From positions 1 to 64,000 of the forward strand of contig JAOEUK010000002.1 in NCBI GenBank assembly GCA_028382965.1: a stretch of 64,000 nucleotides of DNA, given 5' to 3'. The translations under genes and the position numbers were made by a program. Positions 1 to 11,337 of this stretch are shown here, piece by piece. Origin of the DNA: Candidatus Puniceispirillum sp. (GTDB taxonomy: Bacteria; Pseudomonadota; Alphaproteobacteria; Puniceispirillales; Puniceispirillaceae). Positions within the stretch are counted from its first letter, which is position 1. Each line of letters begins with the position of its first letter. The notes beneath the pieces are model-generated. The model saw only the letters and a list, made by a program, of their open reading frames with translations, was not told the DNA's origin and searched no databases.

Positions 1-1
1 A

Positions 2-421
2 AAACATAACCTAAAATTTAACTCTCCTGCGACCAAAGCCATTCATGACCCAGACGTGAACAGTATGTCGCTTTTTGTTGGTATGGATTTAAATGAAACC
101 TTTGCAATCGAAGGCTTTTATGCAGACCACGGCAAGAGTACGTTTACTGGCACAACCGAGACAGTCATAGGGTCAACCATGGGCATTGCAGCTAAAGCGG
201 GTACTGACCTAACAGATGACTTCAGAGCATTCGTCAAAGTGGGCTACCACTTTTGGAAGACAAAGGCGGACGTGAAGGATGATGGTACTAATCTCCTGTA
301 TGGAATCGGTGTAGAATATAAGCTGAGCGAGAATACTGCAATTGTCACTGGGTATGACCGCTTTACCTATGACAATTCGAACGTCACTGATATGAGCATT
401 GGCATAAAATATCGTCTCTAA
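2..421 (+). CDS. Outer-membrane beta-barrel protein, 3' end (5' end outside window)
   Basis: The frame is open from the left edge, so the true start and any signal peptide lie upstream; about 139 residues are visible. Alternating polar and hydrophobic strands with aromatic girdle residues (SLFVGMDLNETFAIEGFYAD, FVKVGYHFW, LYGIGVEYKL, MSIGIKYRL) and a last strand ending the protein are typical of OmpA/OprF-type or small porin barrels (OMP_b-brl). The role is probably structural or a small pore in the outer membrane; no substrate can be read from the sequence. A GTG at 56 gives an apparent shorter start but is inside the barrel. A hairpin follows the stop. The family assignment is by strand pattern only. 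Confidence 0.6.
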   Translation, partial: KHNLKFNSPATKAIHDPDVNSMSLFVGMDLNETFAIEGFYADHGKSTFTGTTETVIGSTMGIAAKAGTDLTDDFRAFVKVGYHFWKTKADVKDDGTNLLYGIGVEYKLSENTAIVTGYDRFTYDNSNVTDMSIGIKYRL

Positions 422-438
422 CAACAGTGCAAAAATAT

Positions 439-472
439 GCGGATAACAACTCACCGGTTGCTTGTTGTCCGC
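439..472 (+). terminator. Hairpin after the barrel protein gene
   Basis: GCGGATAACAA (439-449) pairs with TTGTTGTCCGC (462-472) with one G-T wobble, leaving a loop of about 12 bases. It lies 18 bases after the stop codon. No T-run follows, so it may be a processing or stability hairpin instead of a strong intrinsic terminator. Confidence 0.45.
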
Positions 473-738
473 AATCTCACACAAATTTTGCGAATGGCTT
501 ATTTTAGCCTAATCCAATAACAAAACCCGGCTCCTTAGCCTCTTTTCTTGAAGACGTGAGATTTTGATGGGTAGTGGGGTGTGATTTTTTGGAGCATGGA
601 ACCAAATCACTGAATACAGGGTGATTAGTTCAGATAATAGTGGCTATTTTGTACCAAACTTTGTACCAAATCATATTCTTAATTATATGATATTATTGAT
701 TTAATTGACAATTAGGTTACCAAGGAAGACTTTTCGAG
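473..738. other. Intergenic stretch left of the att repeat
   Basis: No convincing gene is visible here. It contains the 11-bp direct repeat described separately (648-670) and an AT-rich run around 672-710, then enters the tRNA-end-like repeat at 739. Confidence 0.5.
648..670. repeat. Tandem 11-bp repeat TTTGTACCAAA
   Basis: TTTGTACCAAA occurs at 648-658 and again at 660-670, a 12-bp period. A related ACCAAATC occurs near 601. It lies 69-91 bp left of the att-like repeat and about 160 bp from the integrase start. Such pairs can be integrase arm-type or excisionase sites, but this is an inference. Confidence 0.5.
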
Positions 739-767
739 TCTCTCCGCCAGCACCATTTCCCCCATTG
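739..767. repeat. Left att-like direct repeat (attL)
   Basis: Bases 739-767 match 3799-3827 at 28 of 29 positions; the only difference is T758 versus G3818. The core TCTCTCCGCCAGCACCATT begins with CTCTCCGCCA, which is the acceptor strand, discriminator G and CCA of a typical bacterial tRNA-Ser, a common tyrosine-integrase target. The repeat lies 57 bp upstream of the integrase reading frame, the usual int-attL arrangement. No complete tRNA-Ser is present in the window, so this copy is a tRNA 3'-end relic or a tandem island junction. Confidence 0.7.
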
Positions 768-824
768 CATCATGTGTTAACATATTAATTTGTATGCATA
801 TCATATGTCTACAGGTGATGACTG

Positions 825-1487
825 ATGCACAAACTGATGTACACAAATACCTCCCAATATGTCTCCAATAGGGATGGTGTCTTCTATTATATTCGCCGTG
901 TTCCACATGATGTTAGGCAGCATTACGCCTTCTCACGCATATCTTTCAGTGTTCGAACCAAGTCACAGAGGAGTGCTGCACGCGCTGCCAGTTCTGTGAC
1001 ACAGCGTTTGGAAGATTATTGGCTTGGCCTGCGTCTTCAGCAGATGGACATTCCTGCTATTCACCTTGTGAAAGCAGATGATGTGGGGGACAACTCCCCT
1101 CTTCTCCTTGATGCCGCTGAGATGTATCTCAAAACCAAAGGCAAAACAGATAAGACGTTTGTGAGGACTGCAAGGCGCAATGCGGCTTATGTAGCCAAAG
1201 TGTTGGGAAATAAGCCCATCACATCATATGCCACATCCGAAGCTGCCAAATTCCGTGATTGGTGTTTTGAGCAAGGTATGAGCCTCAATACAGTGAAACT
1301 TGTGTTCACAGCTGTTAGGTCAATCATTAACCTGACGATGCGTGAACATGGTATCACAGGAACCAACGCATTCAGCGGCACCTTCATGCCAGACAAGTCG
1401 GATGCTTCGCCAAGGCCACCCATTCCAAATGAAACTTTAAAACTCATTCAAAAACATAAATGCAGACGCCGTCTGACGTTGACATAA
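825..1487 (+). pseudogene. Truncated tyrosine recombinase (integrase), N-terminal half only
   Basis: The 220-aa product starts with the N-terminal segment common in proteobacterial phage-type integrases (YVSNRDGVFYYIRRVPHDVR at about 12-31, then a basic SVRTKSQRSAARAA stretch). A SAM-like core-binding domain follows at about 88-185 (LDAAEMYLKTKGK, then TVKLVFTAVRSIINL). It stops shortly after PIPNETLKLIQ, where full-length relatives of 350-450 aa enter the catalytic domain; no Arg-His-x-x-Arg...Tyr residues follow. The last residues (CRRRLTLT) look like out-of-frame filler. The gene is adjacent to the left att-like repeat. It probably could bind DNA but not recombine. A second ATG at 837 is possible as the start. 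Confidence 0.8.
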
Positions 1488-1581
1488 TCTGCAGTGACAA
1501 GCTTGAGTAAATATTGGTTCGTTACTTATATGAAATTTAACGTCACCCTAAGAACACCTGCCCTGATAAAAATTCATTTAC

Positions 1582-1755
1582 TCATCTCCTAAACAGCAAC
1601 AGCCTAATCAACCTCCACAATCCTCTGAACAGAATTGCTCGCACGAATGGGTTTTGCAATAGCCGTTGAATAAGGAAGCGTAATCTTGGCAGGAAGCGTA
1701 TTGCGAACATTACGAGTGCGATAGCGAATATAGATATGATGATTATTTTTATCAT
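1582..1755 (-). CDS. Small cationic membrane protein, 57 aa, downstream of the polymerase-like gene
   Basis: This ORF starts with ATG directly abutting the TGA stop of the polymerase-like gene (TGA-ATG, no gap), so translation is probably coupled. The product has one hydrophobic segment (IKIIIISIFAIALVMFAI, residues 2-19) and then an Arg/Leu-rich amphipathic tail (RFLPRLRFLIQ, GLWRLIRLLLFRR) with no acidic residue at all. Such composition fits a membrane-anchored peptide with a positively charged cytoplasmic side. There is no recognised family. An alternative frame over the same bases is also open but has no start, so the membrane frame is preferred. Confidence 0.55.
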   Translation of the reverse strand: MIKIIIISIFAIALVMFAIRFLPRLRFLIQRLLQNPFVRAILFRGLWRLIRLLLFRR

Positions 1756-3108
1756 TCAGGAGTTTCTGTTTTCCCACTGACTGTATTCAGGTGGCCCATG
1801 CACCTGTTCTTCAAAAGATAGCTCGCCCCAATCTTTCCCATCAAAAGATGATGGCAGCATTAAACCTATCTCTTCCTTGACTTTGATGTCCTTTTTGAAG
1901 TGACCATAAAATGCTCTCCGCATGTCCTCTTCCAGTTCACTTAACTCTCCATGACCATGGTGAATGATAAAGCTATCATGCACTGGTAATACAGGCACAA
2001 AATCAGTTTTAACAAATTTAAGCATTATGTCTTCAGCCATGACACTATCAATATAATGTAGATAATTGCCATGCCCGTTAAAGAACATGTCCTGAATAGG
2101 CTTGTGAGAATCTAATATGGCTTGCCTAAGAAAAGGCCAGTCAAAGTCAACTTCACTCAAATCAATGTCTTTAGGCTCTTTTAATAAAGGTGTTTTAGCT
2201 TGTATCATTGCATTAAATGCCTCTTTTACTAAGTCGCGATGCTCTCCATCAAATACCCTGCCGTAGGCATCCTCGCTGCCCAATTCCTTGCTCCTGAGAA
2301 TATAAACCATGTGCGGATTTAACTGCGAGTAGTCGTATTCATTTGTACGCTTGCCATCGATAGTGATGTACTTACGATATTCTCTTGGGACATTCTCCCA
2401 CCAACCACGATAAAATCGGCCCCCCTTATCGAAGCGGCCTTCTGAAAATATTCGAACTAATTTCCGTCGTGTAAGGTCTATTGGTCGCTTGTCTGGGTCG
2501 GCCATTATCCGCTTTTGCACCGGAAGCCATTCCTCATCCTTTATTCTGATGTCTGGGTAATGTGCTTTGAGGCATTTATTAATTACTAAAAGATTATCCC
2601 GCATCCCGTTGACGTGGGGAGTGTTTAAATAATCGATTTGCTTCTTTTGACCATCTACTTTGTCTTGTAGAACTATGAACTGAGAAGAAAGGTCAGGCAG
2701 AATAGCTTTAAAGGGGTCTTCTTTAATCTCCGAAAGGATTGAGAGCAGTTCATCATTGGCGACAAACCGTGTGATACTGCCTTCAAGTGTTTCTCGATTG
2801 AAATAGCCCTGCTGGGTTTGCCGAATCATACCTAGTTTAATCAAACCATCATAAGCAGCCATAGTCTGTTTGAAGGTAAAGTTGGGGTCTCTGTAACTTG
2901 AGCTTTCAGAGTACCAACCAGACCTTTTATTTACACCACCCTCATAGCCCTCATGTATTTCGGTGCCTTTCCAAAGCTGAATAATAAGGTGTTCAATTCC
3001 ATTTAGAAAATGAGCTTGGGCCTCACTGGTACGCCTACGGTCACGACTTGCGTCCTCAGTTATCTGTGCCGCCAGCTGATTGACTATATCTATAAGGTGT
3101 TCGTTCAT
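1756..3108 (-). CDS. Polymerase-like protein with family-A/T7-type palm motifs
   Basis: The 450-aa protein has no family I can name. Its C-terminal half shows three motifs in the order and spacing of single-subunit nucleic acid polymerases. Motif A is EYDYSQLNPHM at 257-267, close to the DYSQIELR of DNA polymerase I, with D259 as the metal ligand. A motif B-like helix RDLVKEAFNAMIQA lies at 291-304, with R291 and K295 placed like the RRxxK of the O-helix. Motif C is PVLPVHDSFII at 372-382, like the HDSF of T7 RNA polymerase, with D378. A helix LHYIDSVMAEDIM (350-362) precedes motif C as in both families. The N-terminal 225 residues look helical and have no exonuclease motifs. GRFDKGGRFYRGWW (224-237) precedes motif A. 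The start ATG overlaps the TAA of the upstream membrane protein gene (TAATG). The motifs are visible; the catalytic role (primer, template, DNA or RNA) is unknown. Confidence 0.8.
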   Translation of the reverse strand: MNEHLIDIVNQLAAQITEDASRDRRRTSEAQAHFLNGIEHLIIQLWKGTEIHEGYEGGVNKRSGWYSESSSYRDPNFTFKQTMAAYDGLIKLGMIRQTQQGYFNRETLEGSITRFVANDELLSILSEIKEDPFKAILPDLSSQFIVLQDKVDGQKKQIDYLNTPHVNGMRDNLLVINKCLKAHYPDIRIKDEEWLPVQKRIMADPDKRPIDLTRRKLVRIFSEGRFDKGGRFYRGWWENVPREYRKYITIDGKRTNEYDYSQLNPHMVYILRSKELGSEDAYGRVFDGEHRDLVKEAFNAMIQAKTPLLKEPKDIDLSEVDFDWPFLRQAILDSHKPIQDMFFNGHGNYLHYIDSVMAEDIMLKFVKTDFVPVLPVHDSFIIHHGHGELSELEEDMRRAFYGHFKKDIKVKEEIGLMLPSSFDGKDWGELSFEEQVHGPPEYSQWENRNS

Positions 3109-3302
3109 TAAAGTTCCCGAAAATTTGGCAACAGCTTTTCTGCACTTACTGCAAATTTAAACTCGTTGCAGTAGTCAATGCCTTCAGCAAAGTAGGCTAT
3201 GCCTACAGCCGTGCCAATCAGCATCATCAACGCTAGATAAAGACCAATCGCCATTTGTATCGGCATCTTAAAAAATCTAAATATTCCAAAAACAAACCCC
3301 AC
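3108..3302 (-). CDS. Small membrane protein upstream of the polymerase-like gene
   Basis: The product of about 64 aa has a hydrophobic segment MAIGLYLALMMLIGTAVGIAY in its middle and a polar tail ending LLPNFREL. Its stop overlaps the start of the polymerase-like gene by one base, so the two are almost certainly co-translated. The start is uncertain: a GTG at 3302 sits about 9 bases after a GAGGGGG Shine-Dalgarno-like run; TTG at 3320 extends it to 70 aa; ATG at 3266 shortens it. There is no recognised family. Together with the 57-aa protein it flanks the polymerase-like gene with membrane proteins on both sides. Confidence 0.55.
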   Translation of the reverse strand: MGFVFGIFRFFKMPIQMAIGLYLALMMLIGTAVGIAYFAEGIDYCNEFKFAVSAEKLLPNFREL

Positions 3303-3382
3303 TCTGCTGCGCCCCCTCAAATTAAATGTAAAATATAAAACCTAAACCACTATCTCCATCAGTATCCATTATTGTAACAAAT

Positions 3383-3418
3383 TAGCCTCCACAATTATAT
3401 CGGAGTGTATAGAGGCTA
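3383..3418. repeat. Inverted repeat TAGCCTC / GAGGCTA
   Basis: TAGCCTC (3383-3389) is matched by GAGGCTA (3412-3418) with a 22-base spacer. On the minus strand it lies upstream of the membrane-protein and polymerase-like cluster, so it could form a leader hairpin. Confidence 0.45.
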
Positions 3419-3436
3419 TTCTACTTTAATTATTAC

Positions 3437-3487
3437 AACATACTTATCACAGTCCTCACGTCATTTAAGTGACCCGCTAAGTATGTT
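3437..3487. repeat. Perfect 10-bp inverted repeat AACATACTTA / TAAGTATGTT
   Basis: AACATACTTA (3437-3446) and TAAGTATGTT (3478-3487) are exact inverted copies separated by 31 bases. Just inside, TCAC (3447-3450) can pair with GTGA (3469-3472 region), extending the fold with a bulge. It lies between the polymerase-like cluster and the right att repeat. It could be a structured RNA leader, an operator or a replication or priming hairpin; the sequence alone does not decide. Confidence 0.5.
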
Positions 3488-3798
3488 TGCAAAGGCAGCT
3501 ATAAACCACCCACTTACCTTACTCTCCTTATATTTGTAACGATAAGCAATTAACCCGCTACAATCCTTGTGTAGTCAACCACTCGAATCAAACATAAGTT
3601 AGTACACCCAACACAGCTAATGCCTGTCCTGAGTCAAAATAGAGCGATTAAGGATGGTTCTGTGCGGAAAACAAGGTGATTCTATCTGGGTAGGCACTGG
3701 GTTGACCAAAACGTTGCATTGACGAGTACAGTTACGTGTGAGATTCTACAGATAGCTTGAATTGTGTGATGAGTTGATGCTCATACAGAGAGGCTACC

Positions 3799-3827
3799 TC
3801 TCTCCGCCAGCACCATTGCCCCCATTG
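3799..3827. repeat. Right att-like direct repeat (attR)
   Basis: This is the second copy of the 29-bp repeat, differing from the left copy at one position (G3818). It has the same CTCTCCGCCA tRNA-Ser-like 3' end. Upstream bases GAGAGGCTACCTCTCTCC form a short hairpin but not a tRNA, so the tRNA gene itself is not reconstituted here. Confidence 0.7.
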
Positions 3828-4124
3828 GGATCCTAGTTACTTTTTGTTTGTTTTGCTTTCGGAGAATCAGCATTAAGTTCACTAAAATCCGTTTATTGTT
3901 GTCATTTGAGATAAAACCATTATCTTTGCTGACTTTGCTTCGGCCTAAGTATTGGATTCTAATTAGATTTTGGTTTTTTATTGATTTTTACTACAGTTCC
4001 GATAAAAGTTGCATGGAAGTCTGACTAAAAAAATTAATGTCTAGGTGGCGTTTAGTGGGCGACTATGGCAAACGAAGTTATACTAGAAAATGCTTTTAGC
4101 AGGAGAGATAGGGAGTTCGCAATT

Positions 4125-5294
4125 ATGCTTAAGCCAATAAGGTGGATGATTATTCCAAGCATGTTGAGCGTTTCAACGTTAGCGTTAGCTGGTGGCATGG
4201 AGCAGCCTAAAGTTGTTGACGCAGACTTATCCGGAACTACTGGGGCTAGCGCGTCACAGGTTTCTGCCGAGGTTTCAAAAGCAGCAAAAGCTAGAGCAAT
4301 GAAGGCAGCAAAAAAAATCAAAAAAACTGCGAAAAGCAGTGCAAAACAGGCTCAACAAGCGAAGCAAAGCAGAAACTCCCGCTCACCTGAGGGCTTTCGG
4401 GCCGTGGAAGATGAACAACTTGTTATCGACACATCTCAACTTAGAGATGGTGATGGACTTGGTGCAGTGCAAACCCAATGGCAAATATCCGCTAACGGTG
4501 ATGACTGGATGGTCATACCAGGTGCAGTTTCTGATGCGTTTACTCCCCGTGATCAGCAAGTTGGCAAATATTTACGTGTTCAAGTTTCTTACATAGATGG
4601 TCAAGGCAACCCTGAGTTAATGTATAGTCCTTCGTCCCTAGCTGTTGAAAACGTGAACGACAGCCCAGTTGGATCACCTGCGATACTTGGTGACGCCCGG
4701 GAGGGCTCTGTTTTATCAGTGGATACTAGCCGAGTAAATGATGAGGATGGTTTGGGCCCTATCGGCTACGCATGGCAGCGGTCCTCAACAAAAATAGACT
4801 GGGAACCAATCACTGATAAGATGATCAAAAGTTATCGTATTACCCAAGCTGATGTGGGTTATAGTTATCGCGCATCCATAAGTTATCTTGACGGTTTTGG
4901 AACACGTGAAACGCTGACAACTGAGCCAACAGAAATAATAGCTAACGTTGACAACCCTCTTGAAGGTGATTTGATCATGCGTGGCCAAGCTGTTGAGGGT
5001 AGTGAACTAGTTGCGAGCACCAGTGATCTTACTGACTATGACGGTATTGCCAGTATCAATTTACACTGGGAAGCCTCAATTGATGGTCAAACTTGGGATA
5101 GAATACCTCTTCCTGCAAATGCAGACAGAGTTTTATTAAAGCAACCTCTCGTAGGGATGAAAATTCGTACACGAGCTACTGTAATGGATAATTTTGGTAT
5201 TGAAACAGTTGCTTACGGTCCTACTACTGACCCTGTTAGAAACATTAATAATAAGCCTGTGGGTGTTTTAACAATAAAGCGTGTAGGCAATTGA
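4125..5294 (+). CDS. Secreted protein with three Ig-like/cadherin-like repeats and a Lys-Ala-rich linker
   Basis: The 389-aa product starts with a signal peptide (IRWMIIPSMLSVSTLALAG, cleavage near residue 22). Next is a Lys/Ala/Gln-rich segment (about 47-82, e.g. KAAKARAMKAAKKIKKTAK), then three repeats of about 95 residues. Each repeat has DTSxLxDxDGLG, a QWQ/AWQ/HWE strand, a (D)VGxxxRxxxSYxDGxG strand and an NxNDxPxG linker. Such repeats occur in large bacterial adhesins and surface proteins. The last linker (NINNKPVGVLTI) starts a fourth repeat but the gene stops, so the protein may be the cut front of a longer adhesin. The ATG at 4125 fits the signal peptide better than the upstream ATG at 4065. 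Exact function unknown. Confidence 0.65.
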   Translation: MLKPIRWMIIPSMLSVSTLALAGGMEQPKVVDADLSGTTGASASQVSAEVSKAAKARAMKAAKKIKKTAKSSAKQAQQAKQSRNSRSPEGFRAVEDEQLVIDTSQLRDGDGLGAVQTQWQISANGDDWMVIPGAVSDAFTPRDQQVGKYLRVQVSYIDGQGNPELMYSPSSLAVENVNDSPVGSPAILGDAREGSVLSVDTSRVNDEDGLGPIGYAWQRSSTKIDWEPITDKMIKSYRITQADVGYSYRASISYLDGFGTRETLTTEPTEIIANVDNPLEGDLIMRGQAVEGSELVASTSDLTDYDGIASINLHWEASIDGQTWDRIPLPANADRVLLKQPLVGMKIRTRATVMDNFGIETVAYGPTTDPVRNINNKPVGVLTIKRVGN

Positions 5295-10272: not shown

Positions 10273-10770
10273 ATGTCGATTAACCAGAAAATTGTTAATG
10301 ATTTTATAAAAAACAAAATCAAATTTGTTACCACTGTACCCTGTAAACAGTTAGCTGGAGTAATTGAGGAAATTGATTCATCTGAGGACATTTTCCATAT
10401 TCCCTCCAATAAAGAAGATGAAGGAATGGGACTGTGCGCTGGCGCCTACATGGGTGGAAAACGTTCAGCAATAATTATGCAGAACACTGCTATAGGTGTA
10501 ACTATAAATACTTTGGTAACATTAATTCAATATTATAACATTCCTTTGCCAATGCTGATTAGCTATCGTGGAGAAATTGGCGAGCCAGTTGCGTGTCAGG
10601 TTGAAATGGCTGTTCACACCAAGGCACTGTTGAACCAATTGAATATCCCAACTTATCATTTCCATTCACAAAATGATGCTGAGGAACTTGATTTAATTTT
10701 AAACCATAGCTTTATGGCTAAAAAACCTGTCGCTATTCTTACCGATGCTAACTTTTGGCAGGGGCCATAA
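10273..10770 (+). CDS. comD: Sulfopyruvate decarboxylase, alpha subunit
   Basis: The 165-aa protein matches the Pyr-type half of a split thiamine-diphosphate decarboxylase. It has the conserved TTVPCKQLAGVI start, NKEDEGMGLCAGAYMGGK with the glutamate that activates the cofactor, and MQNTAIGVTINTLVTL. With ComE it decarboxylates 3-sulfopyruvate to sulfoacetaldehyde. In methanogens this serves coenzyme M synthesis; in marine alphaproteobacteria it belongs to sulfolactate/sulfopyruvate breakdown. Phosphonopyruvate decarboxylase is a close relative and cannot be excluded. The beta subunit gene follows after 3 bases. No xsc, suy or transporter genes are seen in the window. Confidence 0.8.
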   Translation: MSINQKIVNDFIKNKIKFVTTVPCKQLAGVIEEIDSSEDIFHIPSNKEDEGMGLCAGAYMGGKRSAIIMQNTAIGVTINTLVTLIQYYNIPLPMLISYRGEIGEPVACQVEMAVHTKALLNQLNIPTYHFHSQNDAEELDLILNHSFMAKKPVAILTDANFWQGP

Positions 10771-10773
10771 ATA

Positions 10774-11337
10774 ATGATTAGAAGCGAAGTTCTCAAAACA
10801 TTGATTCCCATTATTTCTGATCAATTAGTTGTTTCCAACATTGGCTTGCCATCGCAGGAATTACACTCACTTGACGATCAACCAACAAATTTTTACATGC
10901 TTGGTACAATGGGCTTGTCGTCATCAATTGGCCTTGGCCTTGCCTTAGCCCAAAAAGCAAAAGTTATCGCAATTGACGGTGATGGATCAGTTCTAACCAA
11001 CCTTGGCACATTGCCAACAATTGCAAACAACCCTGCCAATAATTTTACCCTATTGATCATTGACAATGGCAGCTATGGATCAACTGGTGACCAACCAACC
11101 TATGCAGGCTTAAAAACATCTCTTTCCAAAGTTGCTGAGGCTTGTGGCTGCGATAACGTTGTTGAATGCGCTGCAGAGTGCACGGCTGCTGCCGTTCAGG
11201 CTGCACTCAATGGGAACAAAATGACCATCATTGTAAGCAAATGTGAATCCGGCAATATCAAAGTCCCAGTTATTGAGATGGATGCGCCAGTTATTCGCCA
11301 TCGGTTTATGGCCGAGGTGACACGCCGCAACATTTAA
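10774..11337 (+). CDS. comE: Sulfopyruvate decarboxylase, beta subunit
   Basis: The 187-aa protein is the PP-type half of the enzyme. It contains NIGLPSQELHSL, MLGTMGLSSSIGLGLALAQ and the thiamine-diphosphate/Mg motif GDGSVLTNLGTLPTIANNP...IIDN (GDG to N spacing as in the family), then NGSYGSTGDQPT. It pairs with ComD to form the catalytic interface. The stop overlaps the start of the next gene (TAATG), suggesting that the phosphatase-like gene is co-translated. Separate subunits of this size are the archaeal-type arrangement; fused phosphonopyruvate decarboxylases are about 370 aa. Confidence 0.8.
   Translation: MIRSEVLKTLIPIISDQLVVSNIGLPSQELHSLDDQPTNFYMLGTMGLSSSIGLGLALAQKAKVIAIDGDGSVLTNLGTLPTIANNPANNFTLLIIDNGSYGSTGDQPTYAGLKTSLSKVAEACGCDNVVECAAECTAAAVQAALNGNKMTIIVSKCESGNIKVPVIEMDAPVIRHRFMAEVTRRNI

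Follow-up and report, generated by a model that had tools for sequence, protein, structure and literature searches.

Predicted exonuclease-less polymerases of the Pol I/T7 RNA polymerase superfamily in phages and in small integrative elements at bacterial tRNA genes

Several small polymerases related to DNA polymerase I (Pol I) have been described in mobile DNA. The TV-Pols are recognised from their thumb helices, the Arg of a hairpin, a pair of Asp residues in the palm and, in the fingers, an Asp and an RxxxK motif. They are encoded next to integrases, resolvases and RM operons in mobile elements, many of which are from Rhodobacterales, and are predicted to be primase-polymerases (Iyer, Abhiman and Aravind 2008, Biol Direct, PMC2579912). 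According to the accessible text of Bebel et al. 2020, CCPol-MP of SCCmec synthesises DNA primers de novo, and CCPol, a dNTP-using primase, retains the Pol I residues E710 and F762. The OB-fold SSB partners of PolA-SSB primases are said, in the portion of the source available, to escape sequence searches, and a defence role for PolA-SSB pairs is raised in the accessible part of Rice 2023. In the PICMI satellite, which carries int, alpA and prim, deletion of prim lowers copy number, as given in the available text of PMC10803314. A phage family, divPolA2, was named by Yutin et al. 2024 (Virol J, PMC11348598). The accessible part of that paper describes its function as unknown and places it in 110 barbavirus genomes and others, in variable neighbourhoods and with up to three paralogues; barbaviruses with divPolA2 also have a regular DNA polymerase, and repair and RNA polymerase are among the options that are listed. 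In the available parts of the literature on Charybdis elements and tycheposons (on Methylophilaceae), no polymerase of the kind described below appears.

We analysed a window of 64,000 nucleotides at the start of contig C12 of a Candidatus Puniceispirillum assembly (2.38 Mb). The features of interest are listed in Table 1. The polymerase contains EYDYSQLNPHM with D259, R291xxxK295, and PVHDSF with D378, with 119 residues from motif A to motif C; GGR (with R231) and R245 lie upstream of motif A. A preliminary description had read motifs A, B and C from the protein, and we confirm them at those residues and in the correct order; they are also conserved in homologues gathered by similarity. No Pfam or NCBIfam profile matches the window protein at E <= 1, and its sole strong PHROG match is phrog_4756 (E 5.8e-36), which is labelled 'unknown function'.

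Table 1. Positions of the element, its genes and the polymerase residues discussed in the text (window coordinates)
Feature	Position	Strand	Remarks
Left direct repeat (att-like)	740..767	+	28 bp
Tyrosine integrase fragment	825..1487	+	N-terminal half only, 220 aa; DUF6538 7.5e-15, weak SAM-like matches
Polymerase ORF	1756..3108	-	450 aa, intact, ATG start; A-superfamily, divPolA2 / phrog_4756 family
Catalytic part, residues 143-418	1855..2682	-	candidate two-helix thumb, Arg hairpin, palm, small fingers
H377-D378 codons	1975-1980	-	
Q303 codon	2200-2202	-	
K295 codon	2224-2226	-	
R291 codon	2236-2238	-	
D280 codon	2269-2271	-	
N264 codon	2317-2319	-	Pol I E710 position
D259 codon	2332-2334	-	
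R245 codon	2374-2376	-	
R231 codon	2416-2418	-	
N177 codon	2578-2580	-	
N-terminal domain, residues 1-142	2683..3108	-	helices and beta hairpins; weakly winged-helix-like
Small ORF	3108..3320	-	70 aa, TTG start, one hydrophobic stretch; stop overlaps polymerase start (TAATG)
Right direct repeat	3800..3827	+	27/28 bp identical to left repeat

The active site is conserved across the family. We aligned 52 homologues gathered by protein similarity and not by motif (alignment A1; 19-77% identity to the window protein; three of the 52 rows are phage genes picked from tblastn matches, and 6 of the 58 rows first aligned were excluded). N177, G230, R231, R245, D259, K295 and D378 are invariant, and R291 (51/52), H377 (51/52) and D280 (48/52) are nearly so. 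A larger alignment, A3, from which 12 of 97 intact references were excluded, also contains loci retrieved with peptide patterns around GGR..W and HDS; for this reason all counts are taken from A1. Among seven further members that were checked singly, D259, R291, K295 and D378 are present in every one, R231 in six and H377 in five; the position of R231 is Lys in the copy of phage ICP1. The preliminary description had made conservation of the putative metal ligands D259 and D378 a test of its reading, and both hold throughout the 52 and the seven. It had also proposed testing the invariance of R291 and K295; K295 is invariant, and so, with a single exception, is R291. The gene is under purifying selection: dN/dS is 0.11-0.12 at dS 0.43 in two of 21 close-relative pairs, 17 of the 21 being saturated. 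The values of 0.046 (window against L126) and 0.089 (L128 against L127) were both obtained at dS near 3.

The nearest named relatives are SAR116 alphaproteobacteria. Family matches occur in 50 of 151 genomes of close relatives (fragments included) and in 22 of 385 genomes of the class; with phrog_4756 added, they occur in 25 of 398 sampled genomes of the phylum, fragments included, and in none of 14 control genomes. One related genome (G071) has three full-length copies, on contigs C34, C53 and C63, that are 49-51% identical to the window protein. All 52 members match phrog_4756. No fitting Pfam or NCBIfam model was found for them when scanned, and DNA_pol_A and RNA_pol are not among the 18 Pfam families matched by any of the 52 at E <= 0.1. 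The family is thus common despite having no fitting model in either collection.

The AlphaFold2 model of the window protein, built with 86 sequences (pLDDT 91.8, pTM 0.89), contains a palm, the presence of which had likewise been set as a test. When compared with the PDB by VIA-align, the model scores Z 11.8-13.2 across 234-264 residues at rmsd 3.6-4.5. The 50 matches listed consist entirely of family A DNA polymerases and yeast mitochondrial RNAP (mtRNAP), the latter with Z 12.1. With Foldseek, none of the PDB matches to the full-length model reached E <= 0.001; Pol I-type enzymes and mitochondrial RNAPs fill the eleven top rows. The order of elements in the model is helices 164-182 and 191-202, strands 218-221 and 229-233 (R231), strand 253-260 (D259), helix 291-303 with R291 and K295, and strands 373-383 around D378. 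The predicted fold and the motifs together support the earlier assignment to the Pol I/T7 RNAP superfamily with a compact palm. They also agree with it that an exonuclease is lacking; its statement that there is no recognisable thumb needs amending, as helices 164-182 and 191-202, which precede the Arg hairpin, could form a short one. Modelled alone, the N-terminal 142 residues reach pLDDT 92.0. Ribosomal proteins and winged-helix regulators such as MarR, CodY and TubR top their PDB rows, with a best Z of 6.4; Foldseek gave no match at E <= 0.001 and no confident fold. The likeness of this modelled domain to matched folds that we label 'winged-helix' is suggestive only.

Much of this architecture recalls the TV-Pols. 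Both have a minimal Pol I-superfamily core with no nuclease, exist in standalone forms, and are found in mobile elements with integrases and RM operons. The beta hairpin with a conserved Arg (R231, 52/52) and the palm with two conserved Asp (D259 and D378, each 52/52, with the family A palm match) are found here, and so are the fingers residues D280, R291 and K295. In the model, helices 164-182 and 191-202 lie where the two antiparallel helices of the thumb would be expected and are a candidate for it. There are also differences. The N-terminal domain of TV-Pol is predicted to be all-helical, whereas that of the window protein consists of helices and beta hairpins, and no D5-type helicase is present in the 14 complete elements described below, unlike in the D5-linked TV-Pols. 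From the motifs and the model, we suggest that the window polymerase probably works like a TV-Pol and is one.

Direct comparison with individual proteins added little to this. The only TV-Pol genome compared, that of Microcystis phage Ma-LMM01, has no significant HMM match. Its protein MAP_030 aligns in the motif A/B region only, and weakly (E 0.1). MAP_030 (L212:22746-24266(-)) is a hypothetical protein of 506 aa with two adjacent transposase genes and, by eye, a polymerase-like motif order; it may be the TV-Pol of Ma-LMM01. Ma-LMM01 thus gave no proof of TV-Pol membership: the RxxxK of MAP_030 is not intact, and the relatives found are at least 84% identical. Two virophage proteins, which we take to come from TV-Pol carriers, match the model by fold with E 7e-3 to 9e-3, no better than Pol I does. 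Single sequences of T7 RNAP, T7 DNAP and E. coli PolA gave no significant match to the window profile. Kinship to N4 RNAPII was rejected, because hhalign shows a match at motif C only (E 0.021).

The relation to the phage proteins is firmer. Using hhalign, the window profile aligns with AUR84708, the divPolA2 protein that was modelled by its describers, over 248 columns (prob 99.3, E 5.1e-20), and GGR, the motif A Asp, RxxxK and the motif C Asp are in register. A tblastn match in MG592441.1 (E 2e-3) falls within AUR84708, and a Barba31A protein ranks fifth in a BFVD fold search (E 4.9e-19). By sequence, then, the window protein belongs to the same family as phage divPolA2. Both lack an exonuclease, and both have an N-terminal globular domain of their own with no assigned fold, as far as the accessible description of divPolA2 goes; that description is from phages, whereas our copies are in bacterial integrase elements at tRNA genes. 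The window protein finds 33 phage records by tblastn and the Shewanella phage KASIA protein finds 69, some with two or three places; viral contigs searched with the window protein alone gave no match. The copy in ICP1 isolate 1992_Ind_M4 (L205:4803-6107), the only ICP1 record among the best 60 of the 69, lies amid unannotated ORFs. Phage and bacterial members are mostly apart in a tree (6 label changes, against 25.9 in shuffles), which is a quick tree with long branches and weak deep forks. The preliminary description could name no family for the protein. In fact its phage relatives had already been published as divPolA2, and the class is probably the TV-Pol of 2008. The protein is a real, conserved polymerase that belongs to a family already in print, and its context is close to one reported in 2008.

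In the window, the gene lies between two direct repeats that enclose about 3.1 kb. The region of the left repeat matches the 3' end of tRNA-Thr(TGT) and its downstream flank over 733-782 with one mismatch (758). The first 18 bp of the repeat occur at three places in the assembly, C12:740, C12:3800 and C6:40946, and the copy on C6 is the 3' end of an intact tRNA-Thr(TGT). The repeat sequence is also present at the tRNA-Thr of L125 and L126. No tRNA gene was detected in the window itself, and tRNA-Ser was ruled out as the source of the repeat, since the match is to tRNA-Thr. Integrases of 315-415 aa align to 822-1472 up to about residue 230. No catalytic-domain profile matches the fragment, the C-terminal half is absent from window positions 1-4200, and there is no other long ORF within the window element. 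Judged from these data at the sequence level, the window copy resides in a decayed element with its integrase cut in half, which would limit this copy to acting on a related element or being moved by another integrase. The small tRNA-targeting element that had been proposed is thus borne out by the repeats, but what remains of it is a remnant. A polymerase in such an element had been called unusual; it is less so, because TV-Pols have been described in comparable mobile elements with integrases and RM operons (PMC2579912). The gene had further been placed between two membrane proteins. A small ORF of the upstream kind precedes the polymerase gene in L125, L126 and L170, which makes the membrane ORF common only to the closest relatives and not to the family. 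As a general partner the small membrane protein was rejected: a hydrophobic small ORF lies upstream in 29 of 107 loci, compared with 80 of 324 random positions.

Intact relatives reveal what such elements look like when complete. The genome loci studied are the best 80 of 318 and lean to SAR116 and Rhodobacterales; neighbouring ORFs were called with a simple ORF caller. Among the 24 genome loci with more than 7 kb on each side, 21 hold an ORF of one integrase-type cluster, which is missing in L125, L172 and L181. For background, the genomes of 31 relatives (about 63.6 Mb) give 202 Phage_integrase matches, or about 0.05 per 16 kb, where the 63.6 Mb are summed from rounded sizes and many of the 24 loci come from taxa other than the background genomes. 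Fourteen loci have the gene enclosed by exact direct repeats (18-71 bp), which makes elements of 6.4-13.9 kb; 13 of these are among the 26 genome loci with more than 7 kb of left and more than 5 kb of right flank. Thirteen of the elements have one repeat copy that shares bases with a detected tRNA gene (Leu twice, Thr, Arg, Gly three times, Pro, Val twice, Ala, Ser and Cys); the repeat is internal to the tRNA gene in L138 and L141, and the overlap in L129 is of a few bases only. The fourteenth element, L203, has a core in common with the tRNA-Cys site of L204. A further locus, L174, with an 18-bp repeat and no tRNA, was left out of the 14. None of 32 viral-contig loci, 15 of them with comparable flanks, has a direct repeat.

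Besides the polymerase, only the integrase-type ORF recurs in all 14 elements, and every other ORF cluster is present in three at most. Thirteen of these integrase ORFs coincide with a PF00589 (Phage_integrase) match; the one in L141 belongs to the cluster, with no PF00589 match there. The integrases of L129 and L203 are split into two ORFs, and some integrases of the 14 look broken. Genes of these elements are on both strands. Their cargo varies. It includes type III RM systems (L186 and L200), a methylase with a specificity subunit (L204:3679-7130(+)) and a NACHT-like protein (L203:3813-7811(-)) at the tRNA-Cys site, an AAA protein (L201), and resolvases, proteases, transposases and Sel1 repeats. 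Matches to the EruA (one), MAD2 and MAD5 models turn up among the 88 cargo ORFs; they are probably the cargo genes of L203 and L204, and these two elements look like carriers of defence genes. The family tallies for the 88 ORFs cover the matches listed, 25 of 37 Pfam and 25 of 56 NCBIfam families. In family searches with coordinates compared, no D5_N, DUF5906, DUF3987 or SSB match falls inside the 14 elements; elsewhere in the 14 genomes, D5_N is found in 2, DUF5906 in 5, DUF3987 in 1 and SSB in 12. A Walker A search found 3 of the 88 cargo ORFs, and as the pattern missed ResIII proteins it excludes no helicase. A Sphingomonas plasmid copy is preceded by an integrase and an HTH gene and followed by Vsr, HNH and cytosine methylase genes, and several SAR116 loci have Sel1-repeat, MAPEG or other proteins as neighbours. 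A protein of about 131 aa, the same (cluster 5) in eight loci and with no Pfam match at E <= 0.01, precedes the polymerase on its strand in L146, L151, L153, L160, L161, L164, L166 and L167.

In the nucleotide pocket, at the sugar-gate position of Pol I (E710 in DYSQIE of E. coli PolA; 264 here), the 52 members have N (28), H (20), Q (2), S (1) or L (1), and none has Glu; five other members checked outside the 52 have His. At the F762 position (299), 33 members have N, 12 L, 4 M and one each A, I and V, with Phe in none; Y766 is replaced by Q or N in 49. Aligned by motif, T7 RNAP has Gly, Met and Tyr at these three positions. Motif C is mostly H-D-S as in T7 RNAP (S in 48/52), where Pol I has H-D-E. 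Two phage proteins outside the 52, AUR84708 and the ICP1 copy, differ from this pattern: they have Glu at the gate, Tyr, and D-E in motif C, and so are Pol I-like. The pocket of the bacterial-element clades fits neither Pol I nor T7 RNAP, so these may use dNTPs or NTPs.

On balance we lean, if only slightly, towards a predicted active, exonuclease-less polymerase of the Pol I/T7 RNAP superfamily that serves as the element's own primer-making replication enzyme. Computation shows a polymerase fold, a conserved active site, purifying selection and a place in tRNA-bounded integrase elements, 14 of which lack D5_N, DUF5906, DUF3987 and SSB-family genes; from there we infer catalysis, de novo initiation, a role in element replication and DNA binding by the N-terminal domain. 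Polymerase and tyrosine integrase would be the common core of small elements which integrate at tRNA genes. The integrase would excise the element, or the element would transfer as a single strand; the polymerase would then start a new strand on the element DNA, which host enzymes would extend. It would hold the place where satellites keep a primase. By analogy, CCPol-MP, PICMI prim and the prediction for TV-Pol argue for primer making. CCPol-MP, in the accessible account, is similarly an A-family polymerase acting as the replication enzyme of an integrating element with genetic-conflict genes. That account also shows CCPol to be close to Pol I, with the E710 and F762 that none of the 52 has here, and to have an OB-fold partner and a helicase, neither of which was recognised beside the window family. 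PICMI, as far as its available description goes, is a tiny marine element with an integrase, a small regulator, one replication gene and defence cargo, as these are; its primase model is DUF3987 plus DUF5906 and its prototype site is beside fis, and the likeness is one of gene content.

Two objections to a replication starter weigh most: a helicase is missing, and in phages the gene is variable in status and sometimes present in several copies. CCPol and the D5-linked TV-Pols have a helicase or SSB next to them; none of the families searched accompanies this polymerase, and a helicase would have to be supplied from outside the element, where DUF5906 proteins exist in 5 of the 14 genomes. The phage copies have variable neighbourhoods, up to three paralogues and, in barbaviruses, a regular DNA polymerase beside them, and are thus unlike a core replication gene. 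The pocket, and the integrases that look broken, also count against replication. A bolder reading, which we consider unlikely, is that a single protein suffices: the winged-helix-like N-terminal domain would recognise element DNA, and the core would make and extend a primer without an element-borne helicase or SSB. With the pocket of the bacterial clades (H/N for the gate Glu, Q/N for the fingers Tyr), it may build RNA or mixed RNA-DNA strands. Integrase and polymerase would then make one of the smallest integrating elements able to replicate, and the gene would also be carried by phages, in part with a Pol I-like pocket.

The pocket also raises the idea of a single-subunit RNA polymerase, like N4 RNAPII or mitochondrial RNAP, that transcribes element or phage genes. 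The HDS of motif C in most members, the lack of a gate Glu in all 52, matches to phrog_2051 (RNA polymerase) in 6 of the 52 (best E 0.0059) and to phrog_414 in 4, and the fold match to yeast mtRNAP are consistent with it, and the accessible part of Yutin et al. 2024 includes it. We find it improbable, since Pfam RNA_pol is matched by none of the 52 at E <= 0.1, whereas N4 gp16 scores 3.9e-14; the fingers Tyr of T7 and N4 RNAP is replaced by Q or N in nearly all members; AUR84708 and the ICP1 copy have the gate Glu and the D-E of Pol I; no promoter-recognition domain was recognised; and the genes of the elements lie on both strands. The cargo suggests instead that the polymerase could act in defence or competition, against phages or rival elements, through nucleotide polymerisation. 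RM, methylase, NACHT-like and AAA genes accompany it, with the EruA, MAD2 and MAD5 matches and the Vsr, HNH and cytosine methylase genes of the Sphingomonas copy; some phages have multiple places per record, and the accessible part of Rice 2023 offers the idea for PolA-SSB pairs. Yet cargo changes between elements while polymerase and integrase stay, the neighbours in several SAR116 loci do not look like defence proteins, and no nuclease or sensor domain was recognised in the protein, which makes this distinctly unlikely. A gap-filling or repair polymerase that works without priming, for example in second-strand completion after single-stranded transfer, would suit a small enzyme that lacks an exonuclease and the presence of another polymerase in barbaviruses, and repair is among the options in the available text of PMC11348598. 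The link to an integrase and to tRNA-bounded elements suggests an element-specific task, however, and no repair partner was recognised; we regard repair as very doubtful.

The connection of phage divPolA2 with integrase-polymerase elements of bacteria provides the family with a testable job and points to an alternative to the primases that are usual in small marine elements. In the accessible portions of the related literature that we found, neither this link between divPolA2 and bacterial tRNA elements, nor the two-gene core, nor the two pocket types is stated. The enzyme is compact, and its two types of pocket may reveal how the superfamily selects dNTPs or NTPs. Elsewhere in the window, two adjacent ORFs of 165 and 187 aa at 10273-11337 (+) resemble, by eye, the subunits of a sulfopyruvate/phosphonopyruvate decarboxylase.
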